The notes under the pieces: model-generated
Told to the model about the DNA's origin: nothing
Seen by the model: the letters and a program-made list of their open reading frames with translations, nothing else
The model's database searches: none
Part shown: positions 7,767 to 45,563 of the stretch, in pieces
Layout of the letters: each line of letters starts with the position of its first letter
How positions within the stretch are numbered: the stretch's first letter is position 1
Position numbers and translations under genes: made by a program
Virus record (IMG/VR): IMGVR_UViG_3300030518_000005
Coordinates: 1-64,000 of that record
Direction: 5' to 3' (one strand)
From: a virus
Length of the DNA: 64,000 nt

Positions 7767-9656
7767 TCACTTGATTGGGCACACGCCACCTTCGCACTCT
7801 AAACTATCCATAAACTCGAACTCTTCTTCAATACCATGAATAGGTGTAGTGTTAGCACGTAGAGTATTGTACTGATCTTCAGTGATCTCTTCGTACGGAG
7901 CTTGTGTGAACCCATGGTCGTTATGTAGTAAGAAGCTAACAGTCTTATGGGAGTTATTGTAGTTAGCAAGCAACCAAGCTTTGATGTCTTCAAGCTCTTC
8001 CTTGCGGTAGTAGACAGTACAAGAGACAGAGTTGTCAGACCATTCAGTTTGAAGCTTCTTAACCCATTTGAGCTGATCGATAGCTGTAGTATCGTTCGCC
8101 AATACTGTTCCTTTAGGATACGAGCATGGGAACTCCACTACCATGGTGTTCTTATCGTCTGTTCCATCGAAGTTCTTCTGGTACTCTACTTTGTACCCAT
8201 TGGTGCGACAGACGGCGATTAGCGGAGAGTCTGATGCCATGCGGATACGACGGATGAAGTGTTGGTAGATAGCTGGGTGAACGCCTGACGTAACCCCAGC
8301 GAGTGTGCTAAGTGTTCCACTAGGCTTAACAGTAGTAAGCTTAATAGATTTCGGCCAACCCTTCTCAGCAGAGTAGCGAGCGTCATATTGACGTAAATGC
8401 TTATAGCAGTCAGACAGCCACGAGCGTTGTTCATCAGATGCTTGAAGGATACCAGTCATGCCTATGCCCATACGCATGTTGCGGTGAACGACTTCTTCTG
8501 TCTCTGGGTGATGGCACGACAGAGCTAACGAATGCTTGTTGATCCTGTATAGAATTGTAGCAACGTCCATAAGCTCTTCTTTAGAAGCGATGTTAGGCAA
8601 GAAGATCTCAGCGAGACAGCAGGTCTCTTTGTCTTCTAACGATTGCTCTGCGCAAGGATTAAAGCCGATGATCTTTTGATCTGGGTACATGTCGCCATCT
8701 GCTAAGCGACCGACTTCACGGGCGAGCTTAAGATTGATGAGTCCGTAAGGTTCACCGTTACCGATGTAACCTTGCCAGAATGCTTCAGGGAGAAGTGCCA
8801 TGTCATTGCATACAACCGAGTTATTAGACATCGCGCGCCAGTTAGGGATATTGCCTAAGTCCCAACGCTTAGCATTGAGGAACTGAAGGTCATCCATATC
8901 ACCGATAGCGATCTGAGCTGAGCGACGTACGTTACCAGATACAACGATGTATCCGATGATGTTCATGATGTCTAGGCAATCGATAGGACGAACCTGTTTG
9001 CCACGACGAGAGTCAAGCACCTTGCAGATCTGCTCAATACCCCAGCAGAGCTCTTCTGGTCCTGATGCAGTACCACCGAAGCTCTTGATTGGAGCACCTT
9101 TGCCACGGACGAGAACAGTAGAGTACGAGAAAGACTTACCTTCTACGAGATAAGCGGAGAGCGTGTGTTCAAGAAGCTTAACCCATCCTTCACGAGAATC
9201 AGGAATAATGAAGTCAGCATCGTTAGTATCTTTGCGTGTGACCTTGATCTCGCGATCCATTACAGGTGGGATCTTATATACGTACTCGCGTTGGATGTTG
9301 TATCCTACGCCAGATCCAAGCATGAGCATATCAAATGCCCAAGTGAAAGGACGAATTGGATGATCTACGAGAGTGACTGCGCAGTTCTGAAGCGATGCGA
9401 GTCCAAACTTCTCTACTGTCTTTGTTCCAAGTTGCCAGAGGAAACGTCCCGCGACAATTCCTTTTAGTCCGAGCATATAGTCTCGAGCTCGCGCACGCTC
9501 AGCTGCAGTGAATCCAACATTGAGTTGTGTGTCTGCTGCGTTAAGGACTCGTTCAACCGTGTCTGTGAATTCTTCCGTAGTGTCGTTCATCTTGCGAGAG
9601 TAAGTTCTCTTGTACGTAACATAGCCAATCTCGCCCCATGGAGTCTTCACATTCAT
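7767..9656 (-). CDS. nrdJ: Class II (adenosylcobalamin-dependent) ribonucleoside-triphosphate reductase
   Basis: 629 residues on the minus strand, with AAAGGAAA before the ATG. The enzyme reduces ribonucleotides to deoxyribonucleotides for phage DNA synthesis, using coenzyme B12 and no oxygen. Marks of the monomeric NrdJ/RTPR family: an early redox Cys in LASLQNCAVTL (about residue 92), the active-site NPCAEQSLEDKETCCLAEI (about 330-350), KPSGTLSTLAGVTSGVHP, and the C-terminal redox pair in LECEGGVCPIK. It is shorter than the Lactobacillus enzyme (739), which is common in phages. It faces the plus-strand ThyX gene, so precursor synthesis for dNTPs is grouped here. Confidence 0.92.
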   Translation of the reverse strand: MNVKTPWGEIGYVTYKRTYSRKMNDTTEEFTDTVERVLNAADTQLNVGFTAAERARARDYMLGLKGIVAGRFLWQLGTKTVEKFGLASLQNCAVTLVDHPIRPFTWAFDMLMLGSGVGYNIQREYVYKIPPVMDREIKVTRKDTNDADFIIPDSREGWVKLLEHTLSAYLVEGKSFSYSTVLVRGKGAPIKSFGGTASGPEELCWGIEQICKVLDSRRGKQVRPIDCLDIMNIIGYIVVSGNVRRSAQIAIGDMDDLQFLNAKRWDLGNIPNWRAMSNNSVVCNDMALLPEAFWQGYIGNGEPYGLINLKLAREVGRLADGDMYPDQKIIGFNPCAEQSLEDKETCCLAEIFLPNIASKEELMDVATILYRINKHSLALSCHHPETEEVVHRNMRMGIGMTGILQASDEQRSWLSDCYKHLRQYDARYSAEKGWPKSIKLTTVKPSGTLSTLAGVTSGVHPAIYQHFIRRIRMASDSPLIAVCRTNGYKVEYQKNFDGTDDKNTMVVEFPCSYPKGTVLANDTTAIDQLKWVKKLQTEWSDNSVSCTVYYRKEELEDIKAWLLANYNNSHKTVSFLLHNDHGFTQAPYEEITEDQYNTLRANTTPIHGIEEEFEFMDSLECEGGVCPIK

Positions 9657-35948: not shown

Positions 35949-36239
35949 ATGAAAACAGTTCAAGAAGTACAAGCGATGCTTGACGAGAGTGTAAATACTC
36001 TACTTGGTCAACATCGTGGTCGTGTTGAGATCACAGAGATAAATCGTGGCGACAATGCTGAACATTACTTCGTTATCGCTTATGTAAAGATGATCGGCGG
36101 ATGTCGAGGTTGTGCTGGCGCTAAGTACACGCTCAACATGCTGGTGAAGAACCACATCATGAACTTTGATCCATCTATCAATCATGTGGTTGATATCACG
36201 GATCACACAGATAAGACGAACGCTTACTATAAGGAATAA
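35949..36239 (+). CDS. NifU-like iron-sulfur scaffold domain protein
   Basis: 96 residues. KMIGGCRGCAGAKYTLNMLV (about residues 48-67) matches the CxxC core of the NifU/NfuA C-terminal domain, where a [4Fe-4S] cluster is bound between two subunits; HRGRVEITEINRGD before it and VVDITDHT after it fit the same fold. Length equals the isolated domain. In a phage it might supply clusters to a phage or host enzyme. Next to peptidyl-tRNA hydrolase. Confidence 0.7.
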   Translation: MKTVQEVQAMLDESVNTLLGQHRGRVEITEINRGDNAEHYFVIAYVKMIGGCRGCAGAKYTLNMLVKNHIMNFDPSINHVVDITDHTDKTNAYYKE

Positions 36240-36240
36240 T

Positions 36241-36672
36241 ATGTCGGCACCAAAGCAGGTCATCATCTTACGTAAAGATCTAAACATGCGCAAGGGCAAG
36301 ATGGTTGCTCAAGGTGCTCATGCATCAATGGCAGTTATTGTTAATCTTTTGGAGTCGCGTTCTATTCCTAGTGATCCAGATACAGATTTCGCAGATGAGG
36401 GTGGCTTATTCCTAAGTGCAGATACTCTTGGTTTCAAGCGCATTCAAGAGTGGCTTGACGGCAAGTTCACAAAGATCTGCGTATCAGTAGATTCTGAAGA
36501 AGAGCTTCGCGACATCTTTAATAAGGCGCAAGCTGCTGGGATTCTCTGCTCTCTAATTCAAGATGCAGGACTTACAGAGTTCGATGGTGTTCCAACATAT
36601 ACTGCTGTAGCTATTGGACCTGACTATCCCGAAGTCATCGATCCTCTTACAAAACACTTAAAGTTGTTATGA
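36241..36672 (+). CDS. pth2: Peptidyl-tRNA hydrolase 2
   Basis: 143 residues from ATG at 36241 with AGGAA upstream. VIILRKDLNMRKGKMVAQGA at the N-terminus, KICVSVDSEEEL in the middle and SLIQDAGLTEF ... TAVAIGPD at the end are the archaeal/eukaryotic type PTH2 pattern (Lys, Gln-Gly-Ala-His-Ala, Asp-Ala-Gly-x-Thr). It frees stalled peptides from tRNA. With the tRNAs, RNase P RNA and deformylase it belongs to the translation-support set. Confidence 0.86.
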   Translation: MSAPKQVIILRKDLNMRKGKMVAQGAHASMAVIVNLLESRSIPSDPDTDFADEGGLFLSADTLGFKRIQEWLDGKFTKICVSVDSEEELRDIFNKAQAAGILCSLIQDAGLTEFDGVPTYTAVAIGPDYPEVIDPLTKHLKLL

Positions 36673-37657: not shown

Positions 37658-37733
37658 TGACGTGTAGCTCAGTTGGTAGAGCAAACCGCTGTTAACGGTT
37701 AGGTCACAGGTTCGAACCCTGTCTCGTCAGCCA
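37658..37733 (+). tRNA. tRNA-Asn (GUU)
   Basis: Full cloverleaf with encoded CCA. Acceptor TGACGTG/TGTCTCGTCA region, D arm AGCTC/GAGC, anticodon stem AACCG/CGGTT around CTGTTAA, T arm ACAGG-TTCGAAC-CCTGT. Reads AAC and AAU. Confidence 0.95.
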
Positions 37734-37734
37734 T

Positions 37735-37810
37735 CCCATTTAAGCCAATCTAGTGAAAGTGTCGCTCTGAAGAAGCGAAGAGGTCCGGGCGGAACGGACA
37801 GGTGGGACCA
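37735..37810 (+). tRNA. Aberrant tRNA-Phe-like (GAA)
   Basis: One base after tRNA-Asn. Acceptor CCCATTT pairs with AGGTGGG (two G:U), then discriminator A and encoded CCA. Anticodon stem TCGCT/AGCGA encloses CTGAAGA (GAA). T stem GTCCG/CGGAC is perfect, but its loop is GGCGGAA rather than TTCRANY, and no D stem can be drawn in 37742-37761. It is a tRNA by architecture, but the usual D-loop/T-loop contact is missing. Confidence 0.65.
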
Positions 37811-37813
37811 AAC

Positions 37814-37841
37814 TTTACTTAGGGGATTCTGAAACTAAAAT
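37814..37841 (+). promoter_or_regulatory. Putative promoter of the RNase P RNA
   Basis: TTTACT (37814-37819), a 16-base spacer, and TAAAAT (37836-37841). Transcription would start at about 37847-37848, exactly where the P1 helix begins. Confidence 0.55.
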
Positions 37842-37846
37842 TTTAT

Positions 37847-38159
37847 GATCTAAAGAGGAGCGACAGGTTATCGCTCGACCAATGCAATGTTGGAGAGAAG
37901 AACGTCGGAGCTACATAGAGTAACATAGTGGTTAACGGCCACCTACCGTAAGGTAAGTCACGGCATCAGAGACGAGTCGTTGGGTAAATCTAACGGGTGA
38001 AACGGGCGACAGGGTATGTGTAGCAACTATAAATAGGACTGCGATGAGGCTACTCGCTTAGCAGTCGGGTTATGGGCAAAGAATGTTATGGCAACATAAC
38101 ATCAAGACAGATGATAACACAAAGATAGAACTCCGCGTATAGTCGCTCCTCTTTAGATC
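37847..38159 (+). ncRNA. rnpB: RNase P RNA (phage-encoded)
   Basis: 313 nucleotides closed by a perfect 18-base-pair P1 (37847-37864 with 38142-38159). P4 can be drawn as ACG-U-CGGAG (37902-37910) with CTCCG-CGT (38131-38138), keeping the universal bulged U. Around it GTCGGAGCTACATAG resembles CR-I, and AGATAGAACTCCGCGTATA resembles CR-V. CAGAGACGA (CR-II), GGGTGAAA (CR-III), AGCAACTATAAATAGG (CR-IV) and AGATGATAAC near 38109 all occur in the right order. A 7-bp stem with a GCAA tetraloop (38084-38101) matches P18. RNase P RNA matures tRNA 5' ends; the gene lies within the tRNA array. No rnpA is visible in the window, so the host protein is probably used. Confidence 0.88.
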
Positions 38160-38174
38160 GCTTTATGGGAATTT

Positions 38175-38702
38175 ATGAAGAAGTGTAGTATTGAAGGCTG
38201 TGAGAGAAAACATAAGGGTAAAGGGTTTTGTCAAAACCATTATATTAAGTGGAAGTATGACTCAGATCCTGTTTATAGACAAAAGAGAATTTTGAGTTCA
38301 GCCAAACGCAAAACTGAATCTTTAAAAGATCCGAATGTTAAAGCTAGACATAATGCTCAAAATCTAAAAAACATGAAAAAGCGTTATAACAATAACGAAG
38401 AATATAGAGCAGCAGAGCAAGAAAGAACTAAACTCTTCAGAAGAGAGAAATACAGAACCAACGAAGAATTTAGACAGAAAGAGTCCATCGATGCTACACA
38501 GAGAAGAAAGTTGATTAAGTTGCAAACTCCAAAATGGGTCAATATGGACGACATTAAGCAGATTTATAAAGATCGTCCTGAAGGGCACCATGTGGACCAT
38601 ATAGTCCCATTACAGGGTGATAACGTAAGTGGACTACATGTGCCCTGGAATTTACAACATTTACCTAGGGAAGAGAACTTAAAGAAGTCGAATAAATTTT
38701 AA
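38175..38702 (+). CDS. HNH homing endonuclease
   Basis: 175 residues. An N-terminal zinc module ([20 protein letters not shown]), a long basic helical linker (about 30-120) and a C-terminal HNH part with [20 protein letters not shown] and [15 protein letters not shown]. It begins 16 bases after the RNase P RNA and ends two bases before tRNA-Ser, so it looks inserted between two RNA genes. GGGA lies before the ATG. Confidence 0.85.
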
Positions 38703-38703
38703 C

Positions 38704-38799
38704 GGAAGGTTGGCAGAGATAGATTATTGCGCCAGGCTTGAACCCTGGTAAACCCACTAACACTGGGTTTCATCCGTGCGAATCGGATACCTTCCTCCA
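38704..38799 (+). tRNA. tRNA-Ser (UGA)
   Basis: Class II cloverleaf with long variable arm and encoded CCA. Acceptor GGAAGGT/ACCTTCC, anticodon stem CCAGG/CCTGG around CTTGAAC. Reads UCA. Confidence 0.92.
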
Positions 38800-38890: not shown

Positions 38891-38967
38891 GCTTGACTAC
38901 CCCAACTGGCAGAGGCAGCAGACTTAAACCCTGCACAGTGTGAGTTCAAGTCTCACCTCGAGTACCA
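38891..38967 (+). tRNA. tRNA-Leu-like (UAA), class I variable loop
   Basis: Acceptor GCTTGAC/CTCGAGT (two G:U, one C:C), CCA encoded, T arm GTGAG-TTCAAGT-CTCAC. The anticodon loop CTTAAAC gives UAA, a leucine anticodon, but the variable loop is only five bases, while tRNA-Leu normally has a long arm. Amino-acid identity is therefore uncertain. Confidence 0.8.
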
Positions 38968-38974
38968 GTTTTAT

Positions 38975-39044
38975 GGACCTACCAAAGGAAGGTCGCTGGA
39001 CTTCTAATCTAGCTAACGAGGTTCGACTCCTCATAGGTCTACCA
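38975..39044 (+). tRNA. tRNA-Arg (UCU)
   Basis: Acceptor GGACCTA/TAGGTCT, CCA encoded, anticodon stem CTGGA/TCTAG around CTTCTAA (UCU), T loop TTCGACT. The D loop is short, giving 70 bases in all. Reads AGA and AGG. Confidence 0.88.
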
Positions 39045-45000: not shown

Positions 45001-45563
45001 TGAAGAAACTACTTCTAGATCTAAAACCTACCCAGTTCTCTCTAGGATTCAAAGATGTTGATGACAAGATCGCCAAGGTAAAACGCGGAGAACATAACTC
45101 TGAGAAGAAAGTTCCAGTCATCGTAGGACCTGGTGGATTGATGTATCTAATCGACCACCATCACTATGTTAGAGCTATGTGGGAATGTGGCCACCGTCAT
45201 GTAGTGGTTGAAGTAAAAGCCGACTACTCTAAGATGGGCAAGAAGAAATTCTGGGCAAAGATGAAGAAGATGAAGTATGTCTTCTTATATGACGCCTTCG
45301 GTAAAGGTCCCCATAGTCCGTATGATCTGCCTGCTGACATCCGCTGTATGTCTGATAACCCTTACCGTTCACTCGCTTGGATGGTACGTGAGTTGGGTGG
45401 CTTCGACAAGTCTACTATTCCTTTCGCAGAGTTCTACTGGGCACAGATGCTCAGGAAGAACATGAAATCCGTCGCTAATCCATTCTCTAGTGCCAGCATC
45501 GAAAAGGCACTCAAACTCTGCCGTGTAAAAGGCAAGAAACTTCCGGGATACAAGAAAGTATAA
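45000..45563 (+). CDS. ParB-like nuclease-fold protein
   Basis: 187 residues. LKPTQFSLGFKDV, VIVGPGGLMYLIDHHHYVRA and NPYRSLAWMVRELGGF are blocks of the ParB-like (ParBc_2) family. These proteins carry a ParB/sulfiredoxin fold, and the DHHH motif suggests nuclease or nucleotide binding. They occur in bacteria and phages without a fixed role. One base overlap with the preceding gene. Confidence 0.78.
   Translation: MKKLLLDLKPTQFSLGFKDVDDKIAKVKRGEHNSEKKVPVIVGPGGLMYLIDHHHYVRAMWECGHRHVVVEVKADYSKMGKKKFWAKMKKMKYVFLYDAFGKGPHSPYDLPADIRCMSDNPYRSLAWMVRELGGFDKSTIPFAEFYWAQMLRKNMKSVANPFSSASIEKALKLCRVKGKKLPGYKKV

Follow-up and report, generated by a model that had tools for sequence, protein, structure and literature searches.

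To our knowledge, RNase P has so far been thought of as a machine found only in cells. Its RNA, which belongs to the small number of RNAs whose history reaches back to the last common ancestor, is treated as cellular and vertically inherited (PMC3486863), serves as a marker of genome completeness (PMC8172020), and contains a helix, P4, described as universally conserved (PMC12974513). The diverged RNase P RNAs of CPR bacteria have, like the RNA described below, lost P13/P14 and reduced their helices, but they are cellular, and some of them are without the UGG/L15 motif that the phage RNAs keep (PMC8172020). Theta ribozymes, which lie beside phage tRNAs, are likewise phage-encoded catalytic RNAs tied to tRNA maturation; however, they are small, self-cleaving and HDV-like, and act at the 3′ ends of tRNAs that mostly have no encoded CCA, whereas a phage RNase P would be a trans-acting enzyme of 5′ ends (PMC10879173). 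Huge phages with arrays of tRNA and tmRNA genes are a further case of translation-related RNAs on large phages, from a survey whose main text is silent on RNase P (PMC7162821). No account of a phage-encoded RNase P RNA was found in the open-access literature searched; an earlier report may exist elsewhere.

The DNA analyzed here (the window) consists of bases 1–64,000 of a virus record in IMG/VR that is 174,974 bases long. We consider it probable (about 70%) that the window contains a gene of the phage whose product is a functional RNase P RNA of class A, which would use the RnpA protein of the host and mature phage tRNAs.

Identification and fold of the RNA

An earlier note, made from the letters of the window, had placed an RNase P RNA inside a tRNA array. 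The Rfam model of bacterial class A RNase P RNA, RF00010, matched positions 37,855–38,155 of the plus strand with 149.5 bits (E = 3.7e-46), at a gathering score (curated cut-off) of 100 bits, and the remaining matches around the RNA, between 37,600 and 39,300, were tRNAs only. The match spanned the full model (positions 1–367), and this full-length alignment contained the conserved regions in the order in which the earlier note had read them. The perfect 18-bp P1, the P4 with a bulged U, and the GCAA-capped P18 of that reading were recovered as well (Table 1). P4 consists of eight pairs around U37905, which join the 5′ and 3′ conserved regions: A37902–U38138, C37903–G38137 and G37904–C38136 precede the bulge, and C37906–G38135, G37907–C38134, G37908–C38133, A37909–U38132 and G37910–C38131 follow it. 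P2 is formed by GTTATC and GATAAC, and P16/P17 and P18 are of the ancestral type. The predicted fold has an energy of −101.5 kcal/mol (z = −5.1), a value that none of 100 shuffled sequences equaled.

Table 1. Features of the RNase P RNA locus (window coordinates).
Feature	Position	Strand	Basis or remark
Peptidyl-tRNA hydrolase, PTH2 type, upstream of array	36166..36672	+	PF01981, 107.3 bits
tRNA-Asn(GTT), CCA encoded	37658..37733	+	ARAGORN; RF00005, 67.9 bits
tRNA-Phe(GAA)-like, atypical T loop, CCA encoded	37735..37810	+	Read from sequence
Promoter-like TTTACT-N16-TAAAAT	37814..37841	+	Pattern match
RNase P RNA gene, class A, compact, without P13/P14	37847..38159	+	RF00010; limits from 18-bp P1
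P1, 5′ strand, GATCTAAAGAGGAGCGAC	37847..37864	+	Perfect complement of 38142–38159
P4, 5′ strand, ACG-U-CGGAG, bulged U37905	37902..37910	+	RF00010 alignment, covariation counts
AAAUAGG, conserved start of P15–P17 domain	38031..38037	+	RF00010 alignment
CGGGU of L15, pairs with tRNA 3′ CCA	38066..38070	+	RF00010 alignment; in 21/21 distinct phage RNAs
P18 hairpin, 8 bp, GCAA loop	38083..38102	+	Helix search and fold
P4, 3′ strand, CUCCGCGU	38131..38138	+	RF00010 alignment, covariation counts
P1, 3′ strand, GTCGCTCCTCTTTAGATC	38142..38159	+	Pairs with 37847–37864
HNH/endonuclease VII-like ORF (homing-endonuclease type), directly 3′ of RNA	38175..38702	+	PHROGs 26577, 1035, 5351, 1271
tRNA-Ser(TGA), CCA encoded	38704..38799	+	ARAGORN
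tRNA-Leu(TAA), CCA encoded	38891..38967	+	ARAGORN and Rfam
tRNA-Arg(TCT)-like, CCA encoded	38975..39044	+	RF00005, 32.1 bits at 38967–39041; limits and anticodon read from sequence

With bacterial class A RNA (rnpB; RF00010) the phage RNA shares P1, P2, the bulged U of P4, a GNRA-type loop on P9, P15–P17, the CGGGU of L15 and the GNRA loop of P18. It differs in its location inside phage tRNA arrays, in base-pair replacements within P4, in its short P3 and P12, and in the absence of P13/P14, which appears in the RF00010 alignment of the window RNA as 43 deleted model positions. P13/P14 are a usual but not a defining part of the specificity domain and are missing in several bacteria. Their absence, together with the short P12 and P3, accounts for the reduced length of the window RNA. 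At J18/2, the window RNA has AGACAGAUG, while other phage RNAs have AGANGAAUG or similar. Because of this divergent junction and of the few, partly degenerate tRNAs nearby, the window copy could be altered or decaying.

Genomic context and the protein subunit

Elsewhere on the record, genes for portal, tail sheath, baseplate, head maturation protease, GroEL and replication proteins are found, and the window also encodes ribonucleotide reductase, DNA ligase and NAMPT. The possibility that the contig is bacterial contamination was rejected, since phage structural genes lie on the same record and the locus is repeated in several assemblies. The nearest named, cultured relative is Myxococcus phage Mx1 (34% identity in the tail sheath and 30% in the portal).

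The tRNA array described in the earlier note is real, with Asn, Ser and Leu genes called by ARAGORN and one more by Rfam; its other members were read by eye and are partly degenerate. The Phe-like gene received no call from ARAGORN or Rfam, and it is supported by tRNA-Phe(GAA) at the equivalent place in L016 and L038. Its T loop is without the usual TTC, and several tRNAs of the window array are atypical. The promoter proposed in the earlier note fared less well: the sequence is present, but such matches occur at near-chance frequency (6 found vs. 4.0 expected), and the call is weak. The PTH2 gene lies 1.2 kb upstream. PTH2, a hydrolase of archaeal/eukaryotic type, was also found in four further records with RNase P RNA (G003, G007, G022 and G030) and in Mx1, whereas the bacterial control genomes gave no match.

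The absence of rnpA from the window, already remarked in the earlier note, extends to the whole record and to 37 others: PF00825 had no match in any of these 38 viral records, while 10 control genomes were positive. An RNase P holoenzyme would thus need the RnpA of the host.

Recurrence in large phages

An exact pattern taken from the 3′ conserved region retrieved two near-identical contigs and a divergent relative, L003, whose RNA scored 188 bits and shares the unusual P4 of the window RNA. Two other patterns, one for the generic core and one for a junction, yielded further RNAs, and one more was obtained through tail-sheath relatives. In total, RNase P RNA was present in 27 viral records, corresponding to 21 distinct RNAs (139–269 bits, all above the gathering score); the window RNA is no isolated case, and at least twenty further large phages have such a gene. 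The contigs reach 463 and 456 kb, and a large-terminase, portal or tail-sheath gene is found on 12 of the RNase P RNA records. Eleven other IMG/VR contigs, which are short or come from isolates and have a canonical P4 (L005–L007, L011–L013, L015, L017, L018, L021, L022), resemble bacterial DNA or the flanks of prophages; they were set aside and are not counted.

RNase P RNA was absent from two relatives whose tail sheaths are similar (G042 and G059) and from cultured Mx1, which has ~36 predicted tRNAs; thus, a phage can be rich in tRNAs and do without the RNA. The tRNA array of Mx1 contains a tmRNA match (L220:46646–47023, 117.7 bits), which overlaps an annotated small CDS and is not listed as tmRNA; Mx1 also has a weak Y-RNA-like match (45169–45297) and a gene for a TROVE-domain protein.

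When six of the phage RNAs were compared by BLAST with 50,697 records of named phages, no confirmed phage-borne RNase P RNA was obtained. The matches were an Acinetobacter prophage flank, a Salmonella contig, and unverified faecal scaffolds, the one examined of which looks bacterial. CAKLQF020000022.1, MT835553.1 and similar entries are bacterial chromosome segments deposited as phage, with ordinary bacterial RNase P RNA. In a tree built from phage RNAs together with bacterial ones, the phage RNAs formed three pure groups (of 13, 3 and 5), with poor alignment and bacterial sampling, and no claim of origin is made from it.

Linkage to tRNA arrays

The RNA lies among tRNA genes in 20 of the 21 cases, the exception being L024, where the nearest tRNA is 3.1 kb away. 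In these 20 loci, 204 tRNAs are on the ribozyme strand and none on the opposite one. The RNA occupies two recurrent positions in the arrays: one set of loci has Cys-[RNase P]-Gly(TCC), and another, to which the window, L016 and L038 belong, has Asn/Phe-[RNase P]-Ser(TGA)-Leu(TAA). Spacing can be very tight. In L008 and L010, the RNA starts 3 nt after tRNA-Cys and ends 7 nt before tRNA-Gly(TCC); in L038, it is 2 nt from the upstream tRNA-Asn and 9 nt from the downstream tRNA-Ser. Gaps of 2–9 nt imply co-transcription of the RNA with the tRNAs, and we infer that the ribozyme receives its 3′ end when the next tRNA is cut.

Large records that have RNase P RNA contain 26–69 tRNAs, except for the window record and the near-identical G003, in which 6 and 5, respectively, are above threshold; two relatives without RNase P RNA have 4 and 1. 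Mx1, which is rich in tRNAs, departs from this pattern. CCA is encoded in 196 of 208 tRNAs. There was no support for CCA encoding as a trait peculiar to phages with RNase P RNA, since PA5oct, which has no known RNase P RNA, encodes it in 11 of 12 tRNAs. In two loci, a tmRNA shares the array with the RNase P RNA (L023:6297–6630 and L037:4423–4727), and the RNase P RNA may belong, with PTH2 and tmRNA, to a phage translation-support package. The L029 locus has a tRNA with a CUA anticodon (9386–9460; record 113386–113460, minus strand), which ARAGORN labels Pyl and which may be an amber suppressor. Since the long late ORFs stay open under code 11, wholesale TAG recoding is not evident.

Selection on the structure and P4 variants

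Covariation among the homologues was found for both P1 and P4; with this and with the RF00010 score above the cut-off, the RNA passed the two refuting checks set in the earlier note. Double changes occur at 7 of 9 P4 pairs (14 distinct P4 sequences). The P4 covariation score of 0.514, obtained with strands hand-aligned from anchors before counting, which favors the structure somewhat, compares with 0.159 for shuffled data (none of 500 as high) and with at most 0.074 for slid pairings. These compensatory changes indicate that the RNA is under selection to fold. P1 is 7–19 bp long in 20 RNAs and differs in sequence nearly everywhere, with complementarity kept; in L043, the automatically picked P1 is not the true one. 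The GNRA-type loop of P18 is kept in phage RNAs where it is resolved.

The CCA-reading CGGGU and the catalytic P4 with its bulged U are retained in all 21 phage RNAs, and encoded CCA together with a kept CGGGU fits normal substrate docking. This bears on the possibility, raised in the earlier note, that the phage RNA is a competitor: it would tie up host RnpA or replace the host RNA, so that host tRNA processing falls and trimming of phage tRNAs is secondary. We regard this as unlikely. The phage RNAs are divergent and compact, and with rnpA missing from all 38 records any protein used would be that of the host, as a decoy would have it; but a decoy needs neither the catalytic P4, which covaries, nor CGGGU, and tRNA linkage, at times at 2–9 nt, better fits processing. 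Maturation of the phage's own tRNAs, the other option offered in the earlier note, is now the better supported of the two, because the RNA is embedded between tRNAs, their CCA is encoded, and the CCA-binding motif is kept.

The sequence of P4 varies among the phages: GUCGG/GUCUG is found in 9 of 21 RNAs and GUUCG or GUUCA in 10. In bacteria, the two positions after the bulged U (n4n5) are CC in nearly all of ~100 parsed RNAs, a sample picked by junction motif. Those RNAs of Burkholderiales, Rickettsiales and Omnitrophota that were found by this motif and lack P13/P14 share the GGUGAAACGGGCAA junction and that absence with the phage RNAs; unlike these, they have GUCCG in P4 nearly always. The sole clear bacterial GUCGG exception is L137. 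This is a Burkholderiales MAG contig, with no tRNA near its RNase P RNA. Phage P4 changes that are rarely seen in the (motif-chosen) bacterial sample, together with the atypical phage tRNAs of the window, could be taken to mean a specialized viral RNase P, in which the altered P4 and the reduced specificity domain confer another substrate preference or resistance to host defense, so that only phage pre-tRNAs or other phage RNAs are processed. This appears improbable, as compensatory changes preserve the same helix and its function may be unchanged.

The least probable explanation, that of a captured host gene without lasting use which drifts as a passenger of recombining tRNA arrays, would fit the patchy presence among relatives, the small and partly degenerate window array, and the mobile traffic implied by nearby HNH endonuclease genes, but the compensatory changes in P4 and P1 across 21 divergent RNAs and the two conserved array positions imply long selection for structure.

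Discussion

By sequence and fold, the RNA belongs to the known class A family; what appears to be new is its viral home, its place inside putative tRNA transcripts, and its P4 variants. According to the reading that we prefer, a functional RNase P RNA that matures phage tRNAs, the RNA would be transcribed together with the phage tRNA array or next to it, and would assemble with host RnpA, the phage encoding none, or act weakly alone. The ribozyme would then cut the 5′ leaders of phage pre-tRNAs, whose encoded CCA would dock in the CGGGU loop of L15. In relatives where only a few bases separate the RNA from tRNAs, the cut that RNase P makes at the tRNA that follows would, in addition, release the 3′ end of the ribozyme. 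The benefit to the phage may be tRNA maturation that continues past the shutdown of host transcription, and more processing capacity for arrays of 20–70 tRNAs. We suggest, tentatively, that the phage RNAs may even form a distinct viral branch with P4 variants of its own, embedded in polycistronic tRNA transcripts, freeing its own 3′ end by the cut at the next tRNA, and working with host RnpA under phage control with an altered substrate preference.

The finding carries a caution, in that the presence of RNase P RNA is unsafe as grounds for calling a contig cellular. The naturally evolved P4 variants provide data of a rare kind on the helix of the active site. A recurrent viral form of this RNA implies that the catalytic core of cellular tRNA maturation can be carried by phages, and it makes testable the questions of why phages hold large tRNA arrays and how these are matured after host shutdown.
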